Shown piece after piece: positions 36,096 through 63,958 of a stretch of DNA of 64,000 bases. The stretch is from Eutreptiella sp. 'Long Island Sound 2002'. Taxonomy: Eukaryota > Euglenozoa > Euglenophyceae > Eutreptiales > Eutreptiaceae. How positions within the stretch are numbered: position 1 is the stretch's first letter; each line of letters begins with the position of its first letter. Where the stretch lies: positions 38,167,833-38,231,832 of the forward strand of contig OZ038391.1 of NCBI GenBank assembly GCA_964036045.1, given 5' to 3'. The notes under the pieces were generated by a model, which did no database searches, was not told the origin of the DNA, and saw only the letters and a list, made by a program, of their open reading frames with translations. Position numbers and translations under genes: made by a program.

Positions 36096-36312
36096 TAAAA
36101 CCACCCCCAACCCCCTTTTTGGCCATTTTTGACCCCTGGGGTGGTTTTATGCCACCTGGGGGTGGTTTTATCCCCCCTTTTGCAGGGGTGGGTTTATCCC
36201 CCCATAGGGGTGGTTTTATCCCCCGATTTGGTCATTGGGGGGGTTTTATCACTCCTTTGGGGTGGTTTTATCCCCCATTTCTGGTGATTTTATCCCCTTA
36301 TTGGCCAGGGGG
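36066..36312. repeat. Satellite of GGGGTGGTTTTATCCCCC units, first two units inverted
   Basis: Two units in the orientation GGGGATAAAACCACCCCC are followed by about seven in the opposite orientation, spaced 20-40 bp. A second array with the same unit lies at 37846-38062. Confidence 0.9.
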
Positions 36313-36389
36313 GGGGGGTTGGCCGATCTCAATGTGAACCAGGAAACTCAGTCCCGGAAGACAGACAGACACACAGTGCACTCTTCAGC

Positions 36390-36435
36390 CTGCTTTGCTT
36401 TAGATTGTTTTGCTTTGCTTTGCTGTGTACTACCC
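36390..36435 (+). repeat. Dispersed block shared with about 37765-37820
   Basis: GCACTCTTCAG, then CTTTGCTTTAGATTGTTTTG, then CTTTGCTTTG, occurs at 36378-36422 and 37767-37818. It lies beside each of the two satellites: after the first and before the second. Confidence 0.75.
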
Positions 36436-37845
36436 CCCCCCCCCCGTGCCTAGGAACCGCCTTGTGCAAGAACCGCCCCCTGGTTCCGCAGTCGAATGCT
36501 CACACAACTTTTTTTACCAGTGGATATTGGGTTTTCCATGGTTGTGGTGGATGTAGGACGGCTATTCAGGTGTGCAGGACATCATTTCATGTGTGTTGCT
36601 ACGGGTCCCCCCTATCAGTCACTGACAGGCGCACATACCCCTTAAACCCCTCCCCCCTGCTCTCGACCCCTTCCCCGAAGCAACCAGCCCCAACAAGAAA
36701 CAAACAAAAGTCAGTTAAACACAGGGGGCCACTGACAGCACCGCTTTGCAAGTTTATTTTTTCATTTTTGGCGAACCATCCTTTCTTAGTTAAACAGGTG
36801 CTGTTTGATGGCTGGGTGCCTGGGCAGGCAGGTTTCACCTTCTTGCCCACCTGGGGGGAGAGGAGAGGACGCCCAGGCACTCAAGGGGTCCGAGAGAGCA
36901 GGGTGGGATATAAAAATATAAACCTGTAAGTTCCTCTCCTGCCCTCTTGCCTGGGCCACCCCCGCCTTCTTGCCCCCTGCCCTCGGGTTCCACACATTTT
37001 TGGACTTCAACAGGTCAGGGATGTTGCAGACATGAAATTTTTCTGTGCCGTGTCTGTGTTACTTGTGTTACTGAAGGTCATCTGGCCCCAAGGGGCAGTA
37101 GAGACAGGAATTCAGGATGGTTTATCACAGGAAGAAGAGTTTCACATCTCAGCCAGTTGAACAGTAGATCATCCCATGCACGTTGGAAGGCACACTACAG
37201 CCTAGTCAACTGAGATTCACTCCTTGGGTGTTCATTTGTCAACGCACCCCGTTCTGCACCCTGCTTTACTTCCAGAGAATGTGTCATGAGTCAGGGATCA
37301 AGGATGAGGGAATCAGGGATCATCCAGGTGCCAGGGAGGGATTTTTGTTTGTGTCGCTGGTTGGCAAAGCATCTGTATTATTATTCCGCAAGCTGTTCAC
37401 ACGTCCTGCTCAAGCACAAAGGAAGAAGTCCTGGTGACCACACACAACGAGCACAGTGGAAGACACATGAAAGACTTGTATGGAGTTGGGGGGGGGGCGG
37501 GGGGGGGGGGCTAATGCAGAGGGCTGGCCCTGGAGGGGGCTACTGCACAGAAGGCCTGAATCTTCGTCCGATACCAATTCATTGATGGAATAAGCATCGG
37601 CTTAGGGCCTGCAGGCTTTCCGTGCCCTGAGGCAAAGTTGTGGAATTGTTGCTGCTCAGTCAGAACCTGGTATGACAGGGATGACCCGGCTCCAGGAGGT
37701 TTTTGTTATGGAGGGGTTTGTAAGTGTGTGGATATCATGCTATCAAGCCATATAAGTATCGTTTCGCACATTGCACTCTTCAGATTTCTTTGGTTTAGAT
37801 TGTTTTGCTTTGTTTTGCCCTGTTGTGTCATTTTATGCTTTGGTG

Positions 37846-38062
37846 GCATAAAACCACCTTGGGGTGGTTTTATCCCCCCGAAGGGGGTGGTTTTAACAAG
37901 GGGGGGTGGTTTTATCCCCCATAAGGGGTGGTTATATCCCCCCAAAGGGGTGGTTTTATCCCCCAAAAGGGGTGGTTTTATCCCCCATAAAAGTGGGAAT
38001 AAAACCACCCGGGGTGGTTTTAAGGGTGGTTTTATCCCCCATTTGGGGGTGGTTTTATGCCC
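37846..38062. repeat. Second GGGGTGGTTTTATCCCCC satellite
   Basis: One inverted unit (ATAAAACCACC), then six forward units, then a mixed group with another inverted unit near 37998. Spacing is about 27 bp. Confidence 0.9.
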
Positions 38063-38065
38063 GGG

Positions 38066-38460
38066 ACCACAGGATATGGACCCCATTTCACTGCTGCAAT
38101 GCTTGTGGGGTGTGATTAGGGGTACACACCCTAGCTTTGATCTTACCATGCCATGCTGTTACACATGCACTAACGGACCGACGGGGTTGTGATTCTTGGT
38201 TTTCTTTTGCAGGCATGGTGAACTCTTTTCTAAGCTGGTAAACAATGTGAAGCATCATGTATTAGTGATGTGCTACGCGCTCCCTCAAGTAATGTATAAA
38301 CCTCAGAAGCCAAGGCATACAGAAGTCGAGGCACCCGCCATTGCAACACAGCAAGATGACAAGGAGTGTCACAAGGTAATGCAAAGCCAGGATACATACC
38401 ATGCCAAGGTTAAGGCGCTAAGATACTTTGAGTTCACCCAGGATACTAGCGGCTATCAAA
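38066..38460 (+). other. Possible exon at about 38214-38504
   Basis: After CTTTTGCAG at about 38213, a plus frame reads HGELFSKLVNNVKHHVLVMC and a Lys/Glu-rich continuation (KPRHTEVEAPAIATQQDDKE) before entering the next minisatellite. It is protein-like but alone, with no phase partner established. Confidence 0.35.
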
Positions 38461-38765
38461 AAGTAAAGTTTTTTTTCATGGATATTTTCATCGATTTTCA
38501 TTGATATTCTCATTGATTTTCATTGATGTTTACATTTATGGATGCATTGGGGTAACGCCCCGGGCGAGCATAATTCAAAGCGGCTTGACCACAGGCAAGT
38601 GAGCGTTCATTGCGGCGTTCATTGATAATTTCACTGATTTTCATTGGTATTTACATTGATTTTCATTGATATTTTCTTTGGTTGTCATTGATATTTTCAT
38701 TGGTTTTTATTGATATTGTCATTGATTTTAATTGATATTTTCATTGATGGTCATCGGTATTTTTA
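38461..38765 (+). repeat. Degenerate 12-24-bp repeat (TTTTCATTGATA type)
   Basis: CATTGATTTTCATTGATATT variants fill 38475-38535 and 38610-38765, split by about 90 bp of unrelated GC-richer DNA. Confidence 0.85.
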
Positions 38766-39604
38766 TTATGGAAAAGACATATCACAAGTGGCTGCATGGG
38801 GTGGATGTAATAAGCTTGGAGAGGAGCTTATCGTCGTATCTATGGCGGGTGGTGTACTTTGAGCCATGGAGCACAACATCAAAATTTATTATCCAAGCAG
38901 GGTGAACAAAAAAAAAAGAAAAAAAATCTTTCAAAAAATGCAACCCAAAAAGCTTAAATAATGTAAAACGTAAAAGAAGCATTTTAAGAAGTTAAGAGTG
39001 GTGACTGAGAGGTTCAAACAAAATTTCTGCAATCAATCCACCATAGCTATCCCCTTTTTGAAACCCCACTGCAGCGTATCCGGAAAACACCAAAAATTAA
39101 TCACGAGGCCAAGCACACAATCCTTCTACCCCCAACACAACAGCCTCCCTCCCCCCCGAAGTAGCAAACGGCCAAACCCACAACCCTCTATACGATCAAA
39201 ACCCTCTCTAGGACACAGATAAACAAAGGAACCGCAGCCACAGCGGCCCTCCCCCCCCAGCCAACCACCCCAAGCACCACAATAGCAGCACAGACACACC
39301 AACACATCAACAAAAGCCCCCAGGTCTATATAATGTACATAAAACAGCCGCCTTCGGGGAACATTGATGTGATTCAGCATTGTTTGGGCGGTATGCCGCC
39401 ATGCATAAAAAAAACGGGTGGTGATTGACATGCCTTGGTGTGGTTGCCCATAATGTTCACCGTTACCTCTCTAAGGATTGGTGACATCTTCTTTCACGGG
39501 GGTATATCGCAAAATAAAGTATGCAGTTCATGCCCTCCCCACCCCTTTTTAAGGTTAAGCCGGATCCTAGATACTCTGAAGTTTCATCTATTTACAGTGC
39601 TTCT

Positions 39605-47200: not shown

Positions 47201-50200
47201 TGCATGTGTCTGTTTTTTAATGAGGTCACCCCCCCCCACTCACATTCTTCCTCTTTTTCCCCACATTGATGCAGCAATGTTGTTGGGAAGCTTATTGCCA
47301 GTGATTTCTGGTTCTTGAACCCGCCACCTGTTGCCACGCTGGGAATGAGAAATTGTGCTGATTGAATTGCCAGTTTTGATGCATACAAGCCTGGAGGGTT
47401 TTAGAGAGAGCCCTTTGCAAATGAGCGGCAGTATCCTTGCCCCTTGACATGCACATAGCATTGGGCCATGGCGATTGGGTCGGTGCCCTGGAAATCTGTC
47501 ACGCATAAGTACACGCATGCCCGGGCACACAGGTCCAAGAACCTTTGACGACTGCACGGGCGCGGATGCAGTGGCATCAGCAGCATGTCCCGATCCCAAG
47601 AGCGATTACTGGTACTGCATCTCGGGTACAGCCGCAGGCGGATGCTGGCTGAAGTCCGAAGGCGCGTTCCCTGAAATGGATTGCACTGCGCAGTGCGGTG
47701 CAACACCAACAACAGGTGCTGCTGCTTCTGGGCTGGTGAGACGAGGTTCTACAGCCAAATACCATTATCAGCTGTTCCATTGTGCAGTAACCAGAGCTAT
47801 CAAAGATTGGCCTTTTAAGCCTGTTTTTGCAGATCTTATGGTGAGGGCAGCTCTTCGAGAACCTGAAAGAATGATTTTCGCACGTTTGAGGATAGGATGA
47901 GCATCACCTCAATCATTTTCACATTTCTTCGTTGAGAATCTTCCCACTATCTGAAGTAATTGCAAGTCCATTGCTCTAACGATTTCCGAACCGCTCCAGT
48001 GGTCGAACAAGAGCCCATGCGCTGCACGGTGCTGCGCTGGCGGAGGTAGGCCCCAGCCGGGATGTGGAGCAGGCGCCGACAGCAGCGCGTCTGCAAGCGT
48101 TCACTGCTGGGGTTCACCCCATCGATGGGACCTCCATTTGGCGTGTCTCCCCAGGGTGCTGATCCCATGCATCCCCAGTGTCACCTCAGCTGTGTACCAT
48201 CCGCATCCCTCAGCAGTCGGCTCTCATGCATCTGAGGTAAGCCTTGTCTTCCGCGCCCAACCCATGGCTTGTTCCCTTTTTGTAGGTTGCAACGAAGCGC
48301 TCAGCGGTGCCGGTGCTGATTATCGAGGCTGTCAGACTCGGACGCGCAGTGGGAACCTCTGCCAACAATGGGACAGCCAGAGTCCCCACGGCCACAGCAC
48401 TACGTCTTCAAGCTACCCGACAGCAGGGCTGGTCTCGAACTACTGCCGCAATCCTGACGGAGAATCCTCCATTTGGTGCTACACCACAGATCCAGACCAG
48501 CGCTGGGAATATTGCGATCCTCTGCCCACAGGTGCACGTCGGTGCTCCGCCACTGTGTTTTTGAATCTGTTTCTTGTGTTTCAGTCTTCAACGGCTCCAC
48601 AGTGCAGCCCAGCCACAGAGCTGCTGGGGGGTCTGGGGCACGTTGGGGGAATGGGGTGGCATTCTTGCATCCCCAAGCAGAAGAGATGTCCTGGCGCTCA
48701 TTGCGAAAACCAGTGTTTTGAAGGCGGCAAGGATGTGTCAAAAGAACCAGGCGCTTGATTCCCTTTGTGTTTTCCGTTGCAGATTTTGCTCCCTAGCGCT
48801 GCTCAATCTTTGCCATTTGTGTGCATGACAGTTGAGGCCATTGAGCAAAGCCCTCTATTCCGGGGGCTGTGACCTCAGAAAAAAATGGGGCAAATGGAGA
48901 AAATGGGGGAAGTTCGTGAAAAATTGTTGGGAGATGACTGGCTAACATGGAACACATGGGTCTCTGTACATGCGGTTGCCTCTTTTGTCACGTCTGTGTT
49001 GTCATGGAGTATATGCACACCTACAATGGGGTGTGATACATTCCAATGAAGGTTATCTGGGACCTGGACACAGCATTGCAGACACTATGCTGAGGGCAGC
49101 TCTTTGAGGACTTCAAACAGTGATTTCCGGCACATTGTAGGATAGGATGGCAACACCTCCATGGACCAGAAGTTACCCCTGCCGGAACATCATGGGAACA
49201 CTACCCGGAAATGGGCAAAATTAGAAGAAAAATTATGGAAATGGGTGAAAACTGGGAAGTTTTGGAAAATTCTGTGGAAAAATGGCAAGCAAATACCCCT
49301 GCAATGCCCCTGCAATGGTGTGTAAAGGTGGTTTTTGTCGGTGATGGTGCGAGGGGGGGGTTTACTTATGAGGCAAGGGACGAACCCCCCTCCCCTCTGG
49401 ACCCCCCAACCCATCATACTTAGCCTCTGGTTGGATCTAGCAACCTAGGCCATTTTTTTTTGCCGCCTCGAAAGTTTGCAACACACTTAATTTCCCCCCA
49501 CTTGTTTGCATTCAAAATGCTCACAATTAGTTAGGGAATGCCGTGCCACGTGTCTTCTTCCGTTGGCTGGGAAGCTTTTCCCGATTCACAGGTACATCTA
49601 GGTACATCACTTGGTACTCGTACGAAAAGTAGTATTGTTCTAAGTCATTTTTCATAAATGAACGAGTCACATATGAACAATGAATTATGAATAGCTTTTA
49701 TGAACGCTTCTTTGTCCACAGTTTTTGTTATGTCTTACCCTTACTCTGTCTTCACGGAGCCGAACATGATGGTTGTTCGGCTTAGTGGTGCCACCAATCT
49801 TCGGGACAGCAAGTGTTCCGACCTACTGGCCCAATGGATGTCATCGTCCCCCCTCATCCGGGCCCGTTTCTCGCAGGCAATGGACCACGCTCCCCTCCCG
49901 GTCCACAAAACGAAGGTGCAGGCCATCCGTGCGTATGCGGAGGCGCTCTTTCCCGCACCTTATCGAATAGGGCTCCTTTTGGAGTTGGGTGCACCCCGGT
50001 CCGGCTTCCGTGTGTTGTCTGGGTACATCACCTGGCGGGGCGACGCCTACACCGCTCGCACCGGGCTGCCCTTCCCATGGCCCATCCCCACACGGGACCA
50101 ATTTGATGCAACGTGGAAGTCATTGACCGCTCCGCTTGCGTTGTCCCCCCCGGTGGAATGTGCCGACCCCCCGTCGTCGGCACGGTGGTGACCAACACCA

Positions 50201-53200
50201 ACTACACAAAGTGAATGAAGTCAACACGTGCACCGAGTTCTTCTCGGGGGGTCCAACGGGGCCTCGGCGAGATGCCCGATGTGGCAACGCAAGCCCACCA
50301 GGGGCCGCGCTCTCAAGGGAGTGACCACGGTAGTAAGTCCCAGCGTGCTAGCACCAAGAAGCGAGCAGGGGAGAGACATCTTCCCCGGCGTAGCAACTCA
50401 ACCAGAAAAGGGACGCACCACATCGTTAAGCGCCCGGACCAAGCCGGGATCAGGATGCCACCAAGGGGCCCATCACACCTCCACCCAACACGGGGCAACA
50501 ACCTCAACCCAGCAACAACTCGCTCCTATGTGGAGGTGGTCCACGGAGTCGCGCCAAGAAGTGGGCGGCCAACCACGGCAACTGGCGCACCCCACAACAC
50601 TCGCTACATCCTACTCCCCCGCACAGCACCCGCCCTTTCTCGCCCCTCAATCCACAACACCCACTACGCCGCCCAACACCCACCATGGGGTGGAGCCGCC
50701 CGCTCCTACCCAACAACGGTCAACACCCGCCACAACCCACACCCATGCGCGCCATGCGTGGCTAAGGGGACGCCACACGCGCAGCAAAGGCACGAAGGAG
50801 AGGGTAGGGGGTTGTTGTTGCGCTCCCCAAAAGAAGGACCGAGCACGGGAGCTTGGAGGCGAAAGGTTGTTATGTGCCCCCGTTGGGGAAACGACCACGC
50901 AAGTGGACATCCCAGGGCCCACCAGCCGCCGTTGGGGAGAGGTACCTCACCGCCGGCTTGGGATGGCCGCTTGGACGCACCTGGCCAACGGCGAAGGCAT
51001 TTGCCTTCCTCTGCGTGGACTCGACACGGAGAAGTGAAACAGGGCAAGTCCGGGGGCTCTGTTGGCACAACCGATCAAAGGAATGGAAAGGGAAGGAGTG
51101 GTGAGAGGCTGAGGGGCACCACGGCCTATGGAGGGAAAGGCCAAGGGAAGGGAAAGGGAAGTGGAGAGGGAAGGTCGGGGCAAGGAGGAAGAGGAAGGTC
51201 AAAGGGTGGTGAGAGGCCGATGGGCACCACTGCCTATGGAGGGAAAGGGTCCAAGGGAAGGGCAGCGAATGGCGATCGGCCAGTAGGCGCCGCCAGCTGC
51301 AGACGAGAACAACACACCACGTCCCCTCACCTTTGTGGTGCGGGGTGACGGGTACCCGTGCGCCGGTGGCTGTTGGTGGCAGCTATCGATTGGTCTATTG
51401 AACCATGGGGTAAAGGCGAGAACACCCGCCTTCGTATGGGTCGCCGGCATGGCCGTCACGGGGGACAAGGATATGGTTGCCCTGGGCCAAATTTGGGCTC
51501 AGGTGCTGCAGGTTTGTAGTCTGCATTTTCGTGTTCATATGTTGTTCATAATTCGCCCGTTCATAATTCGAAATTACCGTTCATAAAACACCGTGCCGCC
51601 GATTTATGAATTGTGAACACGTTTTATGAACACAAATTATGAACACTTTTTGTTAACACAGGTCCTCCAGTCCATTATTGACTGCAAAAAATTGTATTGG
51701 TGCGACGGTTGGGTGCCGGCAGCGGTCCTCCTTGGGGGGGACCAACCGTGGCTGCGGCGGCTGCTGGGCATTAGCATGGCTCCCCAAGTGGGGAGTATTT
51801 TCAATCAAGCCGTGCGGGACAATATGGCCAAGCGGTGGAATGGCGTCGCTGCTCGGAGGACAACCGAGTCCGACACCACCAATCATCGTCGGTATCGGGT
51901 GACCGGCAAAAGTTTGGATGCGGCAAGATGCACCGGCGGGCCGCTGCTGGTCATAGCCAGAAACTGGGTATTTTTGTGCATTTTGCACTGTTGCATGGCC
52001 ATGGGAAGGCTTTTTGTGGCCTGTGGCCTTCCTGGAGGCCCGGTTGGGAAATCATCCCCCTCAGGTCGTAGGGGAGGTACAAAAAATTCTGTACTGGAAC
52101 CGGTGTGGGGTGCGGTTGGGGGTGCACAACGCACCGGACGGGGAGGAGGCCCACAACCCGTTCTAGGCCTGGGAACAGATTGCGCCCCTGCTTGCATATG
52201 TCGAGGAGGACCCCACGTGGCAATCGGTTGTGGCCCTCCGCAGCCCCTCAGCTTTATTACTCTTCGCCCATCCATGGACGCCGCCGAGTTGAGGAAGCTC
52301 CTTGAGGAGATTCAGAAGGCTACCCTCGCCCTAGTGGTATGTTGTCTGTCTGCTGTTGTTTGCGTTCATATTGCGTTCATAATTCGGCGTTCATAAAACC
52401 GAAACTGCCGTCATAAATGATTTATGAACTGATTTATGAACCGATGAATTATGAACCGGTTTTATGAACGATTTATGAACAGCTTCTGCCACGTCCACAG
52501 GAGCAGCGACTGGCAGCCCAGGCTCCAGCTCAAGCTCAAGCTCAAGCCCAAGCTCCGCCCCCACCTCCACCTCAAGCTCCTCCTCCCCCTCAAGCCCCGA
52601 CGCAACCCCACTCCTCCGGGCGACCCCCCGCCGCTCACCCCGCATCCCCACCCGCCGGCGACTCCTTCGGTGAGGAGTTGTCGGACTCGTCGGAGCAGGA
52701 GAGGAGGAGGAGGAGGAAGGAGAAGAAGGAGGAGGAGGAGAAGAGGAAGAAGGAGAAGAAGAAGGAGGAAAAGAAGAAGAAGAAGGAGGCAACGGGGGGG
52801 AGGGGGGTGAAAGAGGAGGACCCCGAGGAGGACATCGAGGTGAAGGCCAAGATGGTGGAGGTGGCAGTGGAGGACGCACGGGGTGGGGGGGGGGTTTGGT
52901 TGTGACCCCGTGGTTGAGGGGGGAGGCTGGCCATGCATGGGGCCTAAGCCACGCCAACCAGCGCAATGTGCTAACCCTCCCCTGGGTGTAGGCAGCGCTG
53001 GACAGTGGGTACTCCCCCGATGCCCCCCCTTTTTCGGCGCTCGATGTGGCGTAAGTCACTTCCCACTGTGGGATGCACTCCAATTTGCGCCCCGAGCGCT
53101 GCAACTTCACCCACCTTTTTTCCTCCCAGTGGAGGAAGCACAGTTCTCAATGGGACCCCCGCATCAAAGCACCGCGCGGGCCTGTAAAAACTTTAGCTTG

Positions 53201-56200
53201 CATCAAGTCCCCGGCACCAATTGGTTCGGGGATGGGGGACAGGGGTTTTCCCGGCTGGGGTTTCCATGTCCATGCCCCCCCTGTGTGCCGCCAGCCCCCC
53301 CCCGCACCCTTGTTCCGGATGCGGTGCCGTAAAAGACGGCGAAATGCCCAGCGCAGGGTGGCCATTTTGGGGGGGGTGTATGACCCTGGGCAGGAGGCCT
53401 TGTACGAGGGGGCTGTTGAGGGCCTCACCATCACCTGCCCCATCAAGCCCCTTGGCTGGGTAGCCCCGGCCACACACAGCACCGCAGCCCCTATGGGTGC
53501 CCCCCAGGGCACCCCTCCCAGTGCAGCCGCGCATTTCCGGATCGCCCTAGGCGCCATGGGCACCGTTGGATTGGAGCCGGATTTTGAGGTATTTGCGTTC
53601 ATCATTCGTTCATAATTCGTTCATAATTAGCCGTTCATAATTTAGCGACGCTGCACTGCCCGTTTATGAACCATGAACGTGTTTTATGAACCCGTTTTAT
53701 GAATGCATTTTATGAACGGTACTGTCACAGATCCTGGACGTGGAGGTGAACCCGGCGGACGTCGCCCGGGGGTTCGCATCCGCTACCGGCTGCAGTCCGC
53801 CAAGTACACCATCGCCCTGTCCGCCCTGTACCAGCTGCTCCTCCTCAACCCGCAACGGGGGTGCTCTATCCTGTCCGGGTTGCGCGAGTGGGAACGGTCC
53901 CGGCGCCTAACGGACACTTGGACGGCGAATACGCCATGCTGGGCTAGCTTGGGTGAGTTGGGGTGGGAGGGCTGTGCTGATGAGGAGATCCTGCTGTCGA
54001 GCTGTGGGTTGACCCCCCCCCCCCCCAGCCCCCGCAGCCCCTCCCTAGCAAAGCCCCCCCGCCCGCCGAGAAACCCAAACCCCCCGCCCTGCCCCCCCCC
54101 CCCAAACCCACCAAACCCAAAAAGCGCCCCGCGGACAACCGCAAGTCCTTCGAATTGGGCAGCAGCTCATCGTAGTCGGACCACGCACTCCCCCGTGGAA
54201 AGGGGAAGGAGGTGAAGGGGAAGCAGCAGCAGCAGCAACAGCAAAAGCGGCGTGAGGAACCCCCCTCTTTGGAGGGGGATGAGTCACCTGACCCCCTGCT
54301 TGGTGCACAGGTTTTGTGCCCTACACCGAAGGTGTCTACCCGGGGGTTGTGACCTCGGTTGTGGGGGGGGGGGGGGAGAAGAGTGTGGGTGGAACACCTA
54401 GGGGAAAAGGAGATGTTGCGGGTTGAGAGGCATCTGTTGTATGCCTCTCATGCTTCAACAGTGACCCATTGGGAGCAGCAGAAGGTTGCTGCTGCAGCGA
54501 AGAAGGCCGCCAAGGCCAAAAAGAAGCCTAACCCCAAACTGGACGCTGACCCGCCGGCTGAGCCGGCCCCTAAGCCCGCAAAGCCTGACACCAAGCCTGA
54601 GGCTAAGCAGGGCCCCAGCCCCAGCCCAAAGCGGCCCCTGAGGCGGCCCCCATGAAGGTGGATGCCCCAGCGCACACGACGAATGAAAAACAATACCATA
54701 TTCCAACAGATCCCTTGGTACCTGTATGAAAGGTAGTTTTGTTCATCATAACTTGTTTTATGAAAAATGAACGCATTTTGCTCTTGCTAGGGTACCCATG
54801 GGCCATTTATGTTCAAAACTTGGGGGGCTGGGTCAACACCCTCGAGGTGAGTTTTTTTTTTGTGGACCGGGGGTTTTTTGTAAAAATTGCCATTTTTGCC
54901 AGGTATGCAAATTATGAAAACATTATCTCCTGTTCATAATTCGATTCATAATTCAGAACTCGTTTTATGAACGCGGCGACCGTTTTATGAACATGTTTAT
55001 GAACAGATGCACAGGCACACAAAAATTCCTCGGTTTTCAATTTATTCTGTCCACTTCACTATCCCTTGTGCTTGCTTGTTCTTGCTGCCCTACACCTCAG
55101 GGCTGGGGCCTGTCGGGTCCTCCCAAAGGGGGGCCGTGGCCTGGGTTTCGCCCCCATCCGGGGCCTGGGCATGGGTTTGGGCAGGGGGTTGGGCTGGGGG
55201 TTGGACCGAGGGTTGAGTGGTAAAACCAACCCCCCCCCCCCCCCCGCCCCCCCCTCCCGGACCCCCCCGCCCACACCACGTTGTTGGTTCATGTCTAGAG
55301 TTAAACTGCAGACCCCCCTGTGGATGGGGCGCAGGGGGTGGGTCTAAATGGGCTGTGACCTCAGAAAAATGGCGACAAACAGATGAAATTGGAGAAACTG
55401 CTGAAAAATGGTGGTTATCCATGTTTATTGGAAACAACCGCTTCAATACAAGCTTCAAGATTCTGGATTGGTGGGAAGGAATGATAACCACAATAACTTG
55501 ATGTTGGAAGCCACATCTTTGCCGTCAACATTTGTTCTCGGCTTACGGTTGTCCACCCGTACTCTCCTCCCTCCTCCCACCAGGAGTACTTGGGCCTTTG
55601 GCGGGGGGGGGGGGGAACATGTGGGAAAAAGGTGTTGCAACTAGTTCGCACCCTAAAGGCATGGTGTGGGGATTATGGACCGTGCACAATTATTATGCAC
55701 CCGTATGGCTACCGGAGTATAGTGGACAACTCAGTGAGACTCAGGGCCCAACTAAACCACGCAAACATCATAGTAGCAGAAGTGGGGTTGAGAATGTATG
55801 GACACGAACACACACAACAACACGGAATACCACACACCACAACAACCACACAGGGGCACGGAGATGTGGGGGAGACTAGAGAGTGGTGGGGGACTGATGT
55901 TGGTGGTGACCGAACCATGGGTGATCCGGCAACTGAGGGACAGGGTCACCGATGGCGGACACAGCCTCGTCAGGACTTGGAGATTGGGACTGATTTGTTT
56001 GCCAGTGCCGCAGAAAACCGCATCACCAGCTGCATCGCTAACACCACTCAGAATGGACAACCCCCCTCCCCCCCCCCACACCACACCCTGGCGACCACCC
56101 CAACAACTCCGCCAACGCCACAGCAACACCGACACCAACAATGGCGGAACACGCACATCCATGCAACAACAATAGAGGGCAGCCCAGGACAGCACACAAC

Positions 56201-59200
56201 AGCCCAGAAAAGACGCTTGGGTCACTGTGTGCCCTGTGTGATGTGTCAACAAACATTTTACAGGGTTGGGGGGGGGAGGCCGTGGACTCCTCCCTCGCCC
56301 CAACTGCGGGGACGCGTACGAAGGGGAACTAGCCCCGGTCCCGAACCCTTAGACTGACGGCGGGCGCTATGTGCATGGTCTACCACCGCCGCTCCAGCTA
56401 AGGCCAACATGCCACCAAACAGCATGCAAGTACGCCCAGGACAGACTGGGATATGTGGGCAAGCAGAAGCAAGTGGCCAAAACCACCAACACCAAGCACA
56501 CCGATACCAACAAGGAGCCCCCTTGAGCCAGGATCTTCCTCCTCAATGGGAAGGAGGGGACAGGGTGCGATGAACCCACTCCCACTCCCCCTCCCCCCCG
56601 CCCCCTCCTCTACCCGCTCCCCACAGCAACACACTCCCCCGCCACCCAATGCCCCCCAGGGCAGAAAGAATAGGGAGGACCCCGAGGAAACTGGGCATGG
56701 GGAAAGGGACGAACAAGGGGAGATAACAGGACAGGGCAGACCGCGCACACCGAAAACGGTGCAGAGTGCAGAAAGAGGAGAAGGAAAGGACAAAAGGGAA
56801 AGAATCATTGTGGTTGTTAGAAGCCCCTGTCAGGAATATTATCCTGCAGATGCACTTCCCTGCGCGCAGAAGTCTGTGCTGGAGTCAGCAAACCCGGCAT
56901 CGAGTCGAAGTGTGCATCTGGATGCGCCTGGTCAACGACACGGGCAACAGCCTGTCTCCGGGACAGCTGACCCTGGAGTAGTCAAACAGGACAAGTCATC
57001 CAGGGGCTCCGTTGGCAAAACAAAAGCACAGTCGATCCACAGAGGGTCAGAATGAGCAATGGCGAGAGGCCAATAGGCGCCGCCAAAGGCAAACAACCTA
57101 TTACCGAGGCGTTGTGCCCCCCGCCCCCGCCCCCCCCCAGTGTTCTTTTTCCTTATATTGATGCAGCAATGTTGTTGGGAAGCTTATTGCCGATGATTTC
57201 TGGTTCTTGAAACTGCCAACCGCTGGCTTGTTCCCTTTTTGTAGGTTGCAATGAAGCGCTCAGCGGTGCCGGTGCTGATTATCGAGGCTGTCAGACTCGG
57301 ACGCGCAGTGGGAACCTCTGCCAACAATGGGACAGCCAGAGCCCCCACGGCCACAGCACTACGTCTTCAAGCTACCCGACAGCAGGGCTGGTCTCGAACT
57401 ACTGCCGCAATCCTGACGGAGAATCCTCCATTTGGTGCTACACCACAGATCCAGACCAGCGCTGGGAATATTGCGATCCTCTGCCCACAGGTGCACGTCG
57501 GTGCTCCGCCACTGTGTTTTTGAATCTGTTTCTTGTGTTTCAGTCTTCAACGGCTCCACAGTGCAGCCCAGCCACAGAGCTGCTGGGGGGTCTGGGGCAC
57601 GTTGGGGGAATGGGGTGGCATTCTTGCATCCCCAAGCAGAAGAGATGTCCTGGCGCTCATTGCGAAAACCAGTGTTTTGAAGGCGGCAAGGATGTGTCAA
57701 AAGAACCAGGCGCTTGATTCCCTTTGTGTTTTCCGTTGCAGATTTTGCTCCCTAGCGCTGCTCAATCTTTGCCATTTGTGTGCATGACAGTTGAGGCCAT
57801 TGAGCAAAGCCCTCTATTCCGGGGGCTGTGACCTCAGAAAAAAATGGGGCAAATGGAGAAAATGGGGGAAGTTCGTGAAAAATTGTTGGGAGATGACTGG
57901 CTAACATGGAACACATGGGTCTCTTTACATGCGGTTGCCTCTTTTGTCACGTCTGTGTTGTCATGGAGTATATGCACACCTACAATGGGGTGTGATACAT
58001 TCCAATGAAGGCTATCTGGGACCTGGACACAGCATTGCAGACACTATGCTGAGGGCAGCTCTTTGAGGACTTCAAACAGTGATTTCCGGCACATTGTAGG
58101 ATAGGATGGCAACACCTCCATGGACCAGAAGTTACCCCTGCCGGAACATCATGGGAACACTATCTGGAAATGGGCAAAATTAGAAAAAAATTATGGAAAT
58201 GGGTGAAAACTGGGAAGTTTTGGAAAATTGAATGGAACAATGGCAAGCAACTACCCCTGCAATGGTGTGTAAAGGTGGTTTTTGTCGGTGATGGGGCGCA
58301 GGGGGTGGGTCTAAATGGGCCGTGACCTCAGAAAAAATGGGGGCAAATGGAGGAAATTGGAGAAATTGCTGGAAAACGCTGGTTATCCATGTTTATTGGA
58401 AACAACCGCTTCGATACCAAATTTCAGCATTCTGATTGGTGGGAAGGAATGTTAACCACACTACCCCGATGTTGGAAGCCACATCCTTGCCGTCCCTGCC
58501 ATTGCATGTGATGTGGAGCGTTGCCTTTCGTTCCTCATGGGGATGCGGGACGAAACACCACATGTGACAGTCACCGTGGGGCTGTGTTGTTACACCACCA
58601 TGGTATTGCGGTGTAAAGATGTCCACTTGGCACATCCACTTGCATTGTTGCATGTGTTGTTCGCCAAAGGCTGGCCACAATGAGTCCTGGTGGGGGATGA
58701 GACCACTGATGATTGAGTAGATAATAGGTTCCTGAGGTATGTAACCACGCCATGCCGGTAGGGTGCGAACCAGTTGCAACACCTTTTTTCCCATATGTTT
58801 TCCCAGTCCCCCCGCCCCTCCCCCCTTATTCCTTTTTCCCACATTGATGCAGCAATGTTGTTGGGAAGCTTATTGCCAGTGATTTCTGGTTCTTGAACCC
58901 GCCACCTGTTGCCACGCTGGGAATGAGAAATTGTGCTGATTGAATTGCCAGTTTTGATGCATACAAGCCTGGAGGGTTTTAGAGAGAGCCCTTTGCAAAC
59001 GAGCGGCAGTATCCTTGCCCTTTGACATGCACATAGCATTGGGCCATGGCGATTGGGTCGGTGCCCTGGAAATCTGTCACGCATCAGCACACGCATGCCC
59101 GGGCACACAGGTCCAAGAACCTTTGACGACTGCACGGGCGCGGATGCAGTGGCATCAGCAGCATGTCCCGATCCCAAGAGCGATTACTGGTACTGCATCT

Positions 59201-62200
59201 CGGGTACAGCCGCAGGCGGATGCTGGCTTAAGTCCGAAGGCGCGTTCCCTGAAATGGATTGCACTGCGCAGTGCGGTGCAACACCAACAACAGGTGCTGC
59301 TGCTTCTGGGCTGGTGAGACGAGGTTCTGCAGCCAAATACCATTATCAGCTGTTCCATTGTGCGGTAACCAGAACTATCAAAGATTGGCCTTTTAAGCCT
59401 GTTTTTGCAGATCTTATGGTGAGGGCAGCTCTTCGAGAACCTGAAAGAATGATTTTCGCACGTTTGAGGATAGGATGAGCATCACCTCAATCATTTTCAC
59501 ATTTCTTCGTTGAGAATCTTCCCACTATCTGAAGTAATTGCAAGTCCATTGCTCTAACGATTTCCGAACCGCTCCAGTGGTCGAACAAGAGCCCATGCGC
59601 TGCACGGTGCTGCGCTGGCGGAGGTAGGCCCCAGCCGGGATGTGGAGCAGGCACGGGAGTCCTCGGCGGCGCCGACAGCAGCGCGTCTGCAAGCGTTCAC
59701 TGCTGGGGTTCACCCCATCGATGGGACCTCCATTTGGCGTGTCTCCCCAGGGTGCTGATCCCATGCATCCCCAGTGTCACCTCAGCTGTGTGCCGTCCGC
59801 ATCCCTCAGCAGTCGGCTCTCATGCATCTGAGGTAAGCCTTGTCTTCCGCGCCCAACCCATGGCTTGTTCCCTTTTTGTAGGTTGCAATGAAGCGCTCAG
59901 CGGTGCCGGTGCTGATTATCGAGGCTGTCAGACTCGGACGCGCAGTGGGAACCTCTGCCAACAATGGGACAGCCAGAGCCCCCACGGCCACAGCACTACG
60001 TCTTCAAGCTACCCGACAGCAGGGCTGGTCTCGAACTACTGCCGCAATCCTGACGGAGAATCCTCCATTTGGTGCTACACCACAGATCCAGACCAGCGCT
60101 GGGAATATTGCGATCCTCTGCCCACAGGTGCACGTCGGTGCTCCGCCACTGTGTTTTTGAATCTGTTTCTTGTGTTTCAGTCTTCAACGGCTCCACAGTG
60201 CAGCCCAGCCACAGAGCTGCTGGGGGGTCTGGGGCACGTTGGGGGAATGGGGTGGCATTCTTGCATCCCCAAGCAGAAGAGATGTCCTGGCGCTCATTGC
60301 GAAAACCAGTGTTTTGAAGGCGGCAAGGATGTGTCAAAAGAACCAGGCGCTTGATTCCCTTTGTGTTTTCCGTTGCAGATTTTGCTCCCTGGCGCTGCTC
60401 AATCTTTGCCATTTGTGTGCATGACAGTCGAGGCCATTGAGCAAAGCCCTCTATTCCGGGGGCTGTGACCTCAGAAAAAAAGTGGGGCAAATGGAGAAAA
60501 TGGGGGAAGTTCGTGAAAAATTGTTGGGAGATGACTGGCTAACATGGAACACATGGGTCTCTTTACATGCGGTTGCCTCTTTTGTCACGTCTGTGTTGTC
60601 ATGGAGTATATGCACACCTACAATGGGGTGTGATACATTCCAATGAAGGCTATCTGGGACCTGGACACAGCATTGCAGACACTATGCTGAGGGCAGCTCT
60701 TTGAGGACTTCAAACAGTGATTTCCGGCACATTGTAGGATAGGATGGCAACACCTCCATGGACCAGAAGTTACCCCTGCCGGAACATCATGGGAACACTA
60801 TCTGGAAATGGGCAAAATTAGAAAAAAATTATGGAAACGGGTGAAAACTGGGAAGTTTTGGAAAATTGAATGGAACAATGGCAAGCAACTACCCCTGCAA
60901 TGGTGTGTAAAGGTGGTTTTTGTCGGTGATGGGGCGCAGGGGGTGGGTCTAAATGGGCCGTGACCTCAGAAAAAATGGGGGCAAATGGAGGAAATTGGAG
61001 AAATTGCTGGAAAACGCTGGTTATCCATGTTTATTGGAAACAACCGCTTCGATACCAAATTTCAGCATTCTGATTGGTGGGAAGGAATGTTAACCACATT
61101 ACCCCGATGTTGGAAGCCACATCCTTGCCGTCCCTGCCATTGCATGTGATGTGGAGCGTTGCCTTTCGTTCCTCATGGGGATGCGGGACGAAACACCACA
61201 TGTGACAGTCACCGTGGGGCTGTGTTGTTACACCACCATGGTATTGCGGTGTAAAGATGTCCACTTGGCACATCCACTTGCATTGTTGCATGTGTTGTTC
61301 GCCAAAGGCTGGCCACAATGAGTCCTGGTGGGGGATGAGACCACTGATGATTGAGTAGATAATAGGTTCCTGAGGTATGTAACCACGCCATGCCGGTAGG
61401 GTGCGAACCAGTTGCAACACCTTTTTTCCCATATGTTTTCCCAGTCCCCCCGCCCCTCCCCCCTTATTCCTTTTTCCCACATTGATGCAGCAATGTTGTT
61501 GGGAAGCTTATTGCCAGTGATTTCTGGTTCTTGAACCCGCCACCTGTTGCCACGCTGGGAATGAGAAATTGTGCTGATTGAATTGCCAGTTTTGATGCAT
61601 ACAAGCCTGGAGGGTTTTAGAGAGAGCCCTTTGCAAACGAGCGGCAGTATCCTTGCCCTTTGACATGCACATAGCATTGGGCCATGGCGATTGGGTCGGT
61701 GCCCTGGAAATCTGTCACGCATCAGCACACGCATGCCCGGGCACACAGGTCCAAGAACCTTTGACGACTGCACGGGCGCGGATGCAGTGGCATCAGCAGC
61801 ATGTCCCGATCCCAAGAGCGATTACTGGTACTGCATCTCGGGTACAGCCGCAGGCGGATGCTGGCTTAAGTCCGAAGGCGCGTTCCCTGAAATGGATTGC
61901 ACTGCGCAGTGCGGTGCAACACCAACAACAGGTGCTGCTGCTTCTGGGCTGGTGAGACGAGGTTCTGCAGCCAAATACCATTATCAGCTGTTCCATTGTG
62001 CGGTAACCAGAACTATCAAAGATTGGCCTTTTAAGCCTGTTTTTGCAGATCTTATGGTGAGGGCAGCTCTTCGAGAACCTGAAAGAATGATTTTCGCACA
62101 TTCGAGGATAGGATGAGCATCACCTCAATCATTTTCACATTTCTTCGTTGAGAATCTTCCCACTATCTGAAGTAATTGCAAGTCCATTGCTCTAACGATT

Positions 62201-63958
62201 TCCGAACCGCTCCAGTGGTCGAACAAGAGCCCATGCGCTGCACGGTGCTGCGCTGGCGGAGGTAGGCCCCAGCCGGGATGTGGAGCAGGCACGGGAGTCC
62301 TCGGCGGCGCCGACAGCAGCGCGTCTGCAAGCGTTCACTGCTGGGGTTCACCCCATCGATGGGACCTCCATTTGGCGTGTCTCCCCAGGGTGCTGATCCC
62401 ATGCATCCCCAGTGTCACCTCAGCTGTGTGCCGTCCGCATCCCTCAGCAGTCGGCTCTCATGCATCTGAGATAAGCCTTGTCTTCCGCGCCCAACCCATG
62501 GCTTGTTCCCTTTTTGTAGGTTGCAATGAAGCGCTCAGCGGTGCCGGTGCTGATTATCGAGGCTGTCAGACTCGGACGCGCAGTGGGAACCTCTGCCAAC
62601 AATGGGACAGCCAGAGTCCCCACGGCCACAGCACTACGTCTTCAAGCTACCCGACAGCAGGGCTGGTCTCGAACTACTGCCGCAATCCTGACGGAGAATC
62701 ATCCATTTGGTGCTACACCACAGATCCAGACCAGCGCTGGGAATATTGCGATCCTCTGCCCACAGGTGCACGTCGGTGCTCCGCCACTGTGTTTTTGAAT
62801 CTGTTTCTTGTGTTTCAGTCTTCAACGGCTCCACAGTGCAGCCCAGCCACAGAGCTGCTGGGGGGTCTGGGGCACGTTGGGGGAATGGGGTGGCATTCTT
62901 GCATCCCCAAGCAGAAGAGATGTCCTGGCGCTCATTGCGAAAACCAGTGTTTTGAAGGCGAACCAGGCGCTTGATTCCCTTTGTGTTTTCCGTTGCAGAT
63001 TTTGCTCCCTAGCGCTGCTCAATCTTTGCCATTTGTGTGCATGACAGTTGAGGCCATTGAGCAAAGCCCTCTATTCCGGGGGCTGTGACCTCAGAAAAAA
63101 ATGGGGCAAATGGAGAAAATGGGGGAAGTTCGTGAAAAATTGTTGGGAGATGACTGGCTAACATGGAACACATGGGTCTCTTTACATGCGGTTGCCTCTT
63201 TTGTCACGTCTGTGTTGTCATGGAGTATATGCACACCTACAATGGGGTGTGATACATTCCAATGAAGGCTATCTGGGACCTGGACACAGCATTGCAGACA
63301 CTATGCTGAGGGCAGCTCTTTGAGGACTTCAAACAGTGATTTCCGGCACATTGTAGGATAGGATGGCAACACCTCCATGGACCAGAAGTTACCCCTGCCG
63401 GAACATCATGGGAACTCTATCTGGAAATGGGCAAAATTAGAAAAAAATTATGGAAATGGGTGAAAACTGGGAAGTTTTGGAAAATTGAATGGAACAATGG
63501 CAAGCAACTACCCCTGCAATGGTGTGTAAAGGTGGTTTTTGTCGGTGATGGGGCGCAGGGGGTGGGTCTAAATGGGCCGTGACCTCAGAAAAAATGGGGG
63601 CAAATGGAGGAAATTGGAGAAATTGCTGGAAAACGCTGGTTATCCATGTTTATTGGAAACAACCGCTTCGATACCAAATTTCAGCATTCTGATTGGTGGG
63701 AAGGAATGTTAACCACACTACCCCGATGTTGGAAGCCACATCCTTGCCGTCCCTGCCATTGCACCGCCACTCTGTTTCTGATTCTTCAGTTGCACTTTTT
63801 TCACCCCTGTTGGATCTCCCTGCTGTTCCGTTCTGCTGGACGCTCCTCAATTCGATGATAACCAACAGCGGGAAATGGCAGGAAGGAAGCTATTTCTGGT
63901 TTTCCGATGCCTGCTCAAATTACCCTGACCGCGAAGGGATGGTCCAGAATTTTCGCAG
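44021..63958 (+). CDS. Multi-kringle / six-cysteine mosaic extracellular protein gene (partial)
   Basis: Exons seen, all on the plus strand: kringle 44021-44272; six-Cys 47533-47715; kringle 48286-48531; kringle 57245-57490; six-Cys 59111-59293; kringle 59882-60127; six-Cys 61749-61931; kringle 62520-62765; terminal-side exon 63790-63958. All module exons enter and leave in phase 1, and the last enters in phase 1, so any combination splices in frame. Predicted order is K-6C-K-K-6C-K-6C-K-X. Kringles are disulfide-bonded extracellular protein- or ligand-binding modules, so the product should be secreted or on the cell surface. Start codon, signal peptide and 3' end are outside what I can identify. 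Introns contain large insertions (49348-55322 and about 55530-57137). Whether one gene spans everything, or recent duplications created several, needs transcript data. Confidence 0.65.
44273..44860. other. Intronic, with ACCACCCCTCAGGGC direct repeats
   Basis: ACCACCCCTCAGGGC at about 44741 and 44800; otherwise nothing assignable. Confidence 0.4.
44861..45340 (+). repeat. Degenerate 55-65-bp minisatellite
   Basis: AGAACGCAGGGGTTACG, a CACTTC block and TCTGATTTTGTCCCCTTTCC recur about eight times from 44875 to 45335 with frequent indels. Confidence 0.85.
45331..45610. repeat. Copies of two dispersed repeat families
   Basis: 45331-45420 (CTGGCGGAGGTAGGCCCC to CAGCGCGTCTGCAAGC) matches 48029-48097, 59610-59697 and 62250-62335. 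45424-45475 (GGTGCGAACCAGTTGCAACA then CTTTTTTCCCACATG) matches 58759-58805 and 61397-61443, and, inverted, 55608-55660. 45530-45605 matches the GGCCAATAGGC family. Confidence 0.7.
45611..46204. other. Intronic, nothing clear
   Basis: A plus frame of 152 codons (45725-46183) is open, as is the minus strand. Composition is Pro/Asn/Thr-rich without domain features. Confidence 0.3.
46207..46602. mobile_element. About 400-bp MITE-like element
   Basis: The left end TTTTGTTGTAGGTCACATGC (46211-46230, then ACTG and T9) is matched in reverse complement by 46570-46602 (A10 GGTGCACGCGACCTACAACA AAAA). Inside, GTAGGTCATG and GCAGGTCGC recur and T8-T10/A9-A10 runs alternate. No coding capacity. A target duplication is not clear. 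Confidence 0.65.
46603..47246. other. Intronic, nothing assignable
   Basis: Contains a C13 run near 47060 and no convincing exon. Confidence 0.35.
47533..47715 (+). CDS. Six-cysteine module exon 1
   Basis: A 61-codon phase 1-1 exon between CACACAG and CAACAG|GTGCTG. Cysteine spacing is C-x10-C-x9-C-x8-C-x12-C-x3-C, with the motifs SDYWYCISGTAAGGCW and EMDCTAQC. Six cysteines in 60 residues point to a small disulfide-bonded extracellular module. I do not recognise the family. It splices in phase to the kringle exon at 48286. Confidence 0.75.
48286..48531 (+). CDS. Kringle exon 2
   Basis: An 82-codon phase 1-1 exon from TTTTTGTAG to GCCCACAG|GTGCAC, with six cysteines and the NYCRNPDG core. 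The donor-side intron starts with the same 20 bp as kringle 1. Confidence 0.93.
49592..49721 (+). other. Hairpin intron I1
   Basis: Candidate donor CACAG|GTACAT, acceptor GTCCACAG. Contains TTCATAAATGAAC, TATGAAC, ATTATGAAT and TTTTATGAACG. It may lie in a 5' UTR, since an ATG follows at 49731. Confidence 0.5.
49722..50191 (+). CDS. Insertion ORF 1, unknown protein
   Basis: From ATG 49731 the frame reads MSYPYSVFTEPNMMVVRLSG and a continuous globular-looking sequence (RIGLLLELGAPRSGFRVLSG, then YITWRGDAYTARTGLPFPWP) to TGA 50189-50191, 153 residues. Composition and the preceding acceptor support coding. No domain is recognised. Downstream, 50200-51330 has two overlapping open frames of low-complexity Ser/Thr/Arg/His-rich sequence that may be intron or disordered coding sequence. 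Confidence 0.5.
50985..51310 (+). repeat. Dispersed GGCCAATAGGC-family repeat inside the insertion
   Basis: Shares ordered blocks with 17645-17880 and 56925-57095. The middle has two to three local copies of GGTGAGAGGC...GGCACCACxGCCTATGGAGG. Confidence 0.7.
51335..51900 (+). CDS. Insertion ORF 2, two exons (51335-51511, 51662-about 51900)
   Basis: Exon one reads GYPCAGGCWWQLSIGLLNHG and ends WAQVLQ in phase 0 at CAG|GTTTGT. Exon two starts in phase 0 after AACACAG and reads VLQSIIDCKKLYWCDGWVPA and LLGISMAPQVGSIFNQAVRD. The exact phase match over the hairpin intron supports the splice. After about 51900 the protein-like sequence continues in two other frames (GIFVHFALLHGHGKAFCGLW, then EVQKILYWNRCGVRLGVHNA with an internal TAG near 52164), so this copy is frameshifted or has unresolved introns. 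Family unknown. Confidence 0.5.
51512..51661 (+). other. Hairpin intron I2 (150 nt)
   Basis: Three to four GTTCATA(A) words (51533, 51544, 51559, 51579) in the 5' part and three TTATGAA(C) words (51604, 51624, 51638) in the 3' part. Because the two words are reverse complements, the intron RNA can fold on itself with the splice sites at the base. Confidence 0.8.
52274..52905 (+). CDS. Insertion ORF 3: coiled-coil, P/Q- and K/E-rich protein (exons 52274-52336, 52501-52905)
   Basis: MDAAELRKLLEEIQKATLAL ends at GTG|GTATGT and joins in phase 0 to EQRLAAQAPAQAQ after GTCCACAG. The helical heptad pattern continues across the junction, good evidence that the intron is real. A Pro/Gln-rich stretch follows, then a Ser/Glu acidic patch and a long Arg/Lys/Glu block, ending in TGA 52903-52905. 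About 155 residues. Likely an elongated or nucleic-acid-associated protein; no family assigned. Confidence 0.55.
52337..52500 (+). other. Hairpin intron I3 (164 nt)
   Basis: Donor GTATGT, acceptor CCACAG. The 5' part has GTTCATA words at about 52369, 52380 and 52392. The 3' part has TTTATGAAC or TTATGAAC words at about 52420, 52432, 52448, 52462 and 52472. Confidence 0.85.
53073..53940 (+). CDS. Insertion ORF 4 (exons about 53073-53588 and 53731 onward), frame broken
   Basis: Exon one reads APRGPVKTLACIKSPAPIGS, a basic RMRCRKRRRNAQRR block and GGVYDPGQEALYEGAVEG, ending in PDFE in phase 0 at GAG|GTATTT. Exon two starts in phase 0 as ILDVEVNPADVARG. The protein-like continuation (RIRYRLQSAKYTIALSALYQ, then LLLLNPQRGCSILSG) is one base out of frame, with the change at a G5 run at 53770-53774. 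One missing G would explain it. Unknown family. Confidence 0.5.
53589..53730 (+). other. Hairpin intron I4 (142 nt)
   Basis: Donor GTATTT, acceptor GTCACAG. GTTCAT(A/C)A words at about 53597, 53609, 53620 and 53633; TTATGAAC or TTTATGAA words at about 53665, 53685, 53697 and 53711. Confidence 0.85.
54000..54174 (+). CDS. Pro/Lys-rich C-terminal segment in the insertion
   Basis: After a C-rich start one frame reads Pro/Lys-rich sequence and a clear end, KKRPADNRKSFELGSSSS, then TAG. It probably ends the protein of ORF 4 or a neighbour. A second Lys/Ala/Pro-rich frame (54413-54655) follows, with VERHLLYASHASTVTHWEQQ and an AKKAAKAKKKPNPK block, ending at TGA 54653-54655. Confidence 0.4.
54733..55014 (+). 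other. Hairpin introns I5 (54733-54790) and I6 (54903-55014)
   Basis: I5: donor AAAG|GTAGTT, acceptor TTGCTAG, with GTTCATCATAA and TTTTATGAA. I6: donor CCAG|GTATGC, acceptor GCACAG, with GTTCATAATTC and ATTCATAATTC, then three TTATGAAC words. Between them is a short exon-like stretch. Confidence 0.6.
55323..55520 (+). repeat. Right remainder of the interrupted unit
   Basis: Matches 58289-58495 (GGCGCAGGGGGTGGGTCTAA through GATGTTGGAAGCCACATC) with about 10 percent divergence, clearly more diverged than the units at 57-64 kb are from one another. Confidence 0.85.
55521..57137. mobile_element. 1.6-kb segment filling a unit junction, possibly mobile
   Basis: It replaces the 333-bp segment found at the same junction in the next units. 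It contains an inverted copy of the GTGCGAACCAGTTGCAACAC family (55608-55660), a 200-codon plus frame (55671-56357) with IIVAEVGLRMYGHEHTQQHG and CVPCVMCQQTFYRVGGG, a Pro/Thr/Gln/His-rich middle, and at its right end a GGCCAATAGGC-family copy (56925-57095) followed by a C-rich run. No defined TIRs. Confidence 0.5.
57245..57490 (+). CDS. Kringle exon 3
   Basis: Same 82-codon phase 1-1 exon as kringle 2 with only a few base differences. No six-Cys exon precedes it in its unit. Confidence 0.93.
58494..58827 (-). other. 333-bp junction segment with a minus-strand coding-like frame
   Basis: The minus strand reads GKHMGKKVLQLVRTLPAWRG and on through YIPQEPIIYSIISGLIPHQD and CHMWCFVPHPHEERK. An identical copy is at 61132-61465. 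The GKKVLQLVRTL part belongs to a dispersed sequence also at 45.4 kb (minus) and 55.6 kb (plus), so this is probably a transposon fragment. Confidence 0.45.
59111..59293 (+). CDS. Six-cysteine module exon 2
   Basis: Protein identical or nearly identical to exon 1 (same six-Cys spacing), phase 1-1, 588-nt intron to kringle 4. Confidence 0.75.
59882..60127 (+). CDS. Kringle exon 4
   Basis: 82-codon phase 1-1 kringle exon, same borders as kringle 2. In its downstream intron the usual GCTCCCTAGCGC is GCTCCCTGGCGC (60385-60396). Confidence 0.93.
61749..61931 (+). CDS. Six-cysteine module exon 3
   Basis: Third copy, phase 1-1, 588-nt intron to kringle 5. Confidence 0.75.
62520..62765 (+). CDS. 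Kringle exon 5
   Basis: 82-codon phase 1-1 kringle exon. The GAGGTAAGC found about 50 bp upstream in the other units is GAGATAAGC here (62468-62476), so if that site were a donor it is lost in this copy. Confidence 0.93.
63790..63958 (+). CDS. Exon following the kringle array, continues off the window
   Basis: After GATTCTTCAG, a phase-1 entry (compatible with the kringle phase-1 end) reads VALFSPLLDLPAVPFCWTLL and ITNSGKWQEGSYFWFSDACS, then NYPDREGMVQNFR, to a CGCAG|GTGATG donor in phase 2. It begins where the array units end (after 63765), so it is the first unique sequence right of the tandem repeats. Domain not recognised; two cysteines and several aromatic residues suggest an extracellular fold. 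Confidence 0.55.

Follow-up and report, generated by a model that had tools for sequence, protein, structure and literature searches.

In CACTA (En/Spm) transposons, subterminal repeats are bound by TNPA-like proteins, and the end motifs, which are family-specific, lie in direct and inverted orientation and can form stem-loops, have a core that is partly common between families (PMC2613891). Introns with inverted repeats have been tied to DNA transposons in the case of introners (PMC9860276), including those of Amoebophrya (PMC7789003), and euglenids have intermediate introns with GT-AG borders and a secondary structure that joins the intron ends (PMC4770533). Here we describe a stretch of 64,000 nucleotides from the euglenid Eutreptiella sp. 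'Long Island Sound 2002' (contig OZ038391.1, positions 38,167,833 to 38,231,832; the whole stretch is called the window below), in which an insertion carries a DNA transposon of ~4.9 kb, bounded by terminal inverted repeats (TIRs), in decayed and rearranged form. The three introns of this element carry arrays of a short word that is also found at the element's ends.

The element has two genes. Open reading frame 1 (ORF1) encodes ~540 aa in two exons (537 aa as joined in copy L037), and ORF2, whose reading region is longer and includes a lysine/glutamate-rich stretch, has two introns. Diverging subterminal repeats are a feature that it has in common with CACTA elements. However, its motif arrays occur also in all three introns and beyond ORF2, its TIR starts with a CCCT-like sequence rather than CACTA, and its target duplication is 2 bp (five of five readable copies) instead of 3 bp (PMC2613891). 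A Tnp2-type transposase domain was not found, either in a Pfam scan of 26 homologues or in a PDB search at E up to 10. Target duplications of 2 bp are also produced by some CACTA-like elements. Introners insert at new positions in many host genes; the introns considered here lie at old positions common to several families and within the transposon's own genes. A word shared among introns, or by introns and transposon ends, is not described in the part of PMC4770533 that was consulted, and we found no earlier description of transposon-end words repeated in a transposon's own introns among the titles and abstract openings listed for the terms that we used in open-licence PMC full text.

The reading that we consider best, with a probability of roughly one half, is that the introns bear arrays of what may be the element's own end-recognition site. 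The evidence comes from a comparison of related families in the assembly that was searched (G000; 2.28 Gb, 2,205 contigs). Besides family A, whose word is that of the window copy, we compared families B, C, E and F; family D (P0037) is not part of the comparison. Genome matches number at least 132 for family B (P0016; 132 scored of 9,262 first-look candidates), at least 144 for family C (P0028; 99 scored of 25,380), at least 144 for family E (P0168; 144 scored of 7,244) and at least 113 for family F (P0033; 113 scored of 7,368). Among the family F matches, 11 are at 92% identity or more; the others are at 65-80% and mostly belong to family B by place. Between the five families, the proteins are 37-73% identical over exon 1; over exon 2, compared for A, B, C and F, they are 39-78% identical. 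The sister families B and F reach 73% and 78% in the two exons.

All three intron positions of family A recur, in phase 0, in the reference copies of B, C, E and F. Phase was judged visually from the codons on either side (in the case of E intron 3, from the translation), and some borders, among them those of C intron 2 and the acceptor of F intron 2, were placed by likeness of the flanking protein alone. GT starts 14 of the 15 reference introns and AG ends all 15; the one exception is intron 1 of L037, which starts with CT and whose counterpart in the window starts with GT. Given that five families at 37-73% identity have intron positions in common and differ in their words, the words changed and the positions did not. 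In intron 1 of B and F, for instance, the first ten bases are kept and the words differ.

Each family has a word that is common to its own introns and ends: GTTCATAA in A, GTTAATATT in B, GTTCCGGCGAC in C, GTTCTAG in E and GTTTAAATTTT in F. Exact words were counted in one reference copy each of A (GTTCATAA), B (TTAATATT), C (GTTCCGG) and E (GTTCTAG), which hold 26, 20, 11 and 15 of them, respectively. Out of these 72, 48 fall within introns, 9 within the first 150 bp and 15 beyond ORF2, and none lies elsewhere. Such arrays might in principle grow neutrally, by slippage and template switching on palindromes and without any function, and the number of units does vary among copies (11-bp losses in intron 1 of L042 and intron 3 of L037). 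However, neutral growth would not be expected to bring separate introns and the two ends to the same word, or to keep exact words out of the coding sequence, and we regard it as very improbable.

The link between introns and ends was also followed with 7-mers, using one reference copy per family, the first 150 bp as the 5' end and, in a test with both ends, the right ends of A, B and C. The 5' end of the own family is the best match of the five for 14 of the 15 introns, and of the 120 possible family pairings none but the true one reaches the observed sum of own-end matching. In exon chunks the mean is 0.007-0.025 7-mer matches per base to the 5' ends (the top value for a chunk, 0.094, is in C), and introns range from 0.042 to 0.385. 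When A, B and C are represented by their two ends and E by its 5' end, the own family is best for all 12 introns of these four families, each of which exceeds the highest of 200 shuffles. In second copies the own family is again best, for nine of nine delimited introns (11 were tried, and two, both of E, could not be delimited). Among the introns themselves, 7-mer sharing has a mean of 0.267 matches per base within families (minimum 0.086) and of 0.038 between families (maximum 0.230), and it is no different for introns at the same position in different families (mean 0.039). Introns of B and F have some 7-mers in common, as expected of AT-rich sister words. To judge from these reference sequences, the words vary jointly across introns and ends, by family and not by intron position. 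At the level of sequence, then, the sharing of words, their family specificity, the conserved intron positions and a coding sequence without exact words in the four copies counted are demonstrated.

Word columns are also somewhat conserved across family A copies (0.93, 0.93 and 0.91 vs 0.83, 0.89 and 0.86; intron 1 from 8 of 11 copies, with L037, L040 and L044 missing, and introns 2 and 3 from 6 of 11 each), a difference that depends on the choice of columns and is not used as proof.

The words common to introns and ends would also fit an origin of the introns from copies of the element's end arrays, in an ancient introner-like event, with recopying or gene conversion between arrays keeping the copies alike since then; some known introners do have TIRs (PMC9860276, PMC7789003). 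Such an event would have to be old, because the introns, 15 in five families, occupy three common positions. The ten kept bases at the start of intron 1 in B and F, beside words that differ, speak against this history, and a search of the 15 introns for TIR-tip motifs gave one 6-base match, in C intron 2. We consider this origin unlikely. The original prediction had proposed introner-like spread of introns within the element; as a recent process, this is not supported, given the three positions common to five families whose words differ.

The element's ends are inverted repeats (CCCTTGGTACCTGTATGAAAAG...). TIR tips read CCCT(A/T)G in A, B and C (with CCTTTGG at the left end of L037), CCCTGG in E and TCCTAGG in F. 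Identical 2-bp flanks are present in all five copies with both tips readable: TT for L035 and for L037, CA for L041, AC for the family B copy L051/L053, and CA for a copy of family C that lies on C13. L042 has an eroded right end. In L050, a short family B copy, the flanks are TC and TC if the last base of one tip may differ; both of its TIRs lie ~2.3 kb apart, and it is perhaps a deletion derivative. Separately, a run of ~80-bp tandem repeats with 12 matches (L057) is found in a family C copy or next to it. In an alignment by eye, the five families have TIRs that are alike in their outer part and that have the word or a near-variant of it ~28-30 bases from the tip; in A, B, E and F, a segment nearer the start of the TIR is similar to the reverse word. 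The word would thus seem to be the part of the end-recognition sequence that varies.

The element is a DNA transposon with TIRs starting CCCT, 2-bp target duplications and a two-gene coding region, and words related to the inner part of the TIR are arrayed just inside the ends, in the 3' region beyond ORF2, and in all three introns. In the scenario that we favour, the word would be the binding site of a protein that the element encodes, either the transposase-like ORF1 product or that of ORF2. The introns could then serve as additional binding arrays, free of the constraint of a reading frame, that aid the assembly of the transposition complex or damp the element's own transcription, and splicing, as suggested by the frames and their conservation, would take the arrays out of the mRNA. 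If the specificity of the protein shifts, the arrays must follow, and the arrays would therefore change jointly. The potential to form hairpins would result from the inverted layout of the words. We suggest, at somewhat less than even odds, that the introns of these transposons may be part of transposition or of its self-control, with protein specificity, ends and introns diversifying as one module. That introns offer a place for cis-acting transposon signals without affecting the coding sequence is a suggestion that we make just as tentatively.

The window copy is broken by a nested repeat and by inversions. Its parts, with the outer edges of the insertion, are as follows.

49343..49358, no strand assigned: left one of two near-duplicates, at the insertion's outer edge in the kringle-gene repeat (from alignment to three intact repeat units)
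49607..49729, + strand: 5' TIR and subterminal word array (homology to the left ends of L035, L037, L041 and L042)
49730..50180, + strand: ORF1 exon 1, first part (MSYPYSVF...), transposase-like, without Pfam match
50181..51319, + strand: nested unrelated repeat of ~1.1 kb that breaks ORF1 (genome copies up to 93% identical)
51320..51511, + strand: ORF1 exon 1, second part (...QIWAQVLQ)
51512..51661, + strand: intron 1, phase 0, GTTCATAA array (fold z -5.8; own-family word match)
51662..52233, + strand: ORF1 exon 2 (VLQSIIDCKK...), frame broken in the window copy
52274..52336, + strand: ORF2 exon 1 (MDAAELRKLLEEIQKATLALV; from the window sequence, and L037 starts similarly)
52337..52500, + strand: intron 2, phase 0, GTTCATAA array (fold z -3.0; own-family word match)
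52501..53588, + strand: ORF2 exon 2 (from comparison with other copies)
53589..53730, + strand: intron 3, phase 0, GTTCATAA array (fold z -4.5; own-family word match)
53731..54675, + strand: ORF2 exon 3 region (homology to L035 and L037)
54712..54790, - strand: 3' TIR and subterminal word, inside the inverted segment
54903..55014, - strand: 3' array, which lies beyond ORF2 in intact copies, inside the inverted segment
54712..55215, - strand: 504-bp inverted segment (orientation relative to its left neighbour reversed in seven of seven copies that have both)
55323..55338, no strand assigned: right one of the two near-duplicates, at the insertion's outer edge (from alignment to intact repeat units)

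Within ORF2 exon 2, positions 53060-53360 are inverted relative to their neighbours when compared with eight of the eight copies that have this piece, and a few further rearranged copies are present in the genome. The original prediction had placed five or six introns of one design in this insertion. Those at 51512-51661, 52337-52500 and 53589-53730 are indeed coding introns: they run from GT to CACAG between open frames in phase 0, carry forward words in their 5' half and reverse words in their 3' half, and fold better than shuffled sequences. The remaining three segments of the list belong to the ends or to the 3' array. The stretch at 49592-49721 (z -0.6) consists for the most part of the 5' TIR and the subterminal region, which closes with a 3'-splice-like CCACAG just before the ATG; that at 54733-54790 (z -0.9) corresponds to the 3' TIR region; and that at 54903-55014 (z -1.7 on the + strand, -3.1 on the - strand) is the 3' array, which lies beyond ORF2 in the copies read. 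The description of the introns as a self-similar family holds for introns 1-3, which have words in common with each other and also with the ends.

Exact GTTCATAA/TTATGAAC matches in the window number 23 on both strands, and all lie within the insertion (49698 to 55004), vs a mean of 1.08 and a maximum of 4 in 100 dinucleotide shuffles. The words are thus unclustered outside the insertion, as had been claimed, within the window; genome-wide this does not hold, with 1,701 and 1,738 matches that combine two words within 30 bases (472 and 144 in a control with the pattern reversed). Ten stretches fetched round such clusters all contain the element or its parts. Among them, the family A copies L035, L037, L041 and L042 are near full-length at ~4.9 kb, and the rest are partial or rearranged. 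The insertion thus does carry a gene-bearing mobile element, as had been proposed, one that is repeated across the 2.28-Gb genome.

A role of the hairpins in the RNA is another explanation, and euglenid introns with conventional borders and end-joining structures are known (PMC4770533). Under this explanation the inverted words would bring the splice sites together, the pairing would be under selection, and the sharing with the ends would be inherited. Consistent with it, no more than 3 of 100 shuffles fold as well as the native sequence in 13 of the 15 introns (C intron 2 trimmed to its last 201 bases, for folding only), and introns 2 and 3 of C are highly stable. Against it, folding of B intron 3 (24/100) and F intron 3 (45/100) is within the range of the shuffles. 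Arms were also swapped in five family A copies (cut by rule; in L037 and L042 as the first five of six arrays), and 41 to 107 of the 120 permutations reach the native total. Native arms thus pair no better than swapped ones, and the shared word accounts for arm pairing in family A. When the test was run in a second form, A, B and E gave no clear native advantage, and the arms of C intron 2 paired best with one another; family C may have bespoke pairing. Nor does RNA pairing lead one to expect a single word in all three introns and at the DNA ends, or its joint change from family to family. We consider it an unlikely explanation overall, and the role in splicing that the original prediction had raised for the hairpins is possible, if not specific, given the two introns that fold no better than shuffles and the swapped arms that pair equally well.

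Several observations weigh against reading the introns as arrays of an end-recognition site. Introns 2 and 3 of family C are near-perfect hairpins (z -14 and -8), and the order of forward and then reverse words in the introns of A and E would be explained by pairing as well. C intron 3 is the one exception in the matching to 5' ends, with 9 matches, tied with the end of A, and 25 of 200 shuffles as high; the values per base of C introns 2 (0.055) and 3 (0.042) fall within the range of C exon chunks. In the TIR itself the word is exact at the left end of A and the right end of C, and is a variant at the right end of A, the left end of C, and in E and F. Single strays of other families' words occur as well: TTAATATT once in C and GTTCCGG once in B. 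No Pfam family matches ORF1, which is without a recognised transposase or DNA-binding domain, and the pieces of ORF2 that were scanned gave weak, low-complexity Pfam matches only, below the curated cut-offs (in the lysine-rich piece). Apart from these points, the second word of C, GGCGACGT, occurs once in L035 as a stray.

The homologues listed (26; 120 of 298; 80) are unnamed 'ena' database proteins, without a named family. The Pfam scan of the 26 homologues matched no family for the first and four families with one or two members each at E 0.037-0.12, none of them a transposase, and no PDB relative was found at E up to 10. Conserved motifs include RGDxYPxAGG, GGDxPWxRR, DGEE and DVVES, which may point to an RNase-H-type transposase. 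A viral origin was considered and rejected: the scan of viral contigs gave four matches, of which L001 and L003 look coding and L002 and L004 are AT-rich stretches. In L004, inverted GTTCATAA-like words stand in a row at 13200-13290, in an AT-rich stretch of the viral contig, probably by chance in such DNA.

The insertion interrupts a tandem array of 2.64-kb kringle-gene repeat units, and alignment against three intact units places its edges near 49358 and 55323. The near-duplicate that flanks it is ~16 bp (49343-49358 and 55323-55338) and does not match the 2-bp target duplication, which points to a further event. The pieces at 49358-49606 and 55216-55322 are within the insertion and outside the transposon. 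The array of 2.64-kb units spans 47225-63763 of the window, and an open frame inside the units encodes a kringle domain. Elsewhere in the window, a separate inverted word array (CATTTTTGACCC / GGGTCAAAAATG) at 25144-25650 and 29056-29083 perhaps represents the subterminal repeats of another element; inverted GGGGTGGTTTTATCCCCC arrays lie ~2 kb apart at 36059-38090, and units resembling TTTTCATTGATA form an array at 38473-38767. In the assembly, a uL14 gene is nearest to chloroplast uL14c chains, and chloroplast-type uL14 genes lie on large contigs at G000 C8:45797545 and C25:7750747, perhaps as nuclear copies of plastid DNA.

From the perspective of transposon evolution, the finding bears on how transposon ends and the proteins that bind them diverge into families that do not interfere with each other, and on the reason for inverted repeats in some introns. 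The five related families, each with its own word, are natural replicates within one genome, in which the predicted binding of each family's own protein to its own word, at ends and in introns, is directly testable. If introns do carry such signals, the introns of transposons should not be taken as neutral in studies of introners and of the origin of introns.

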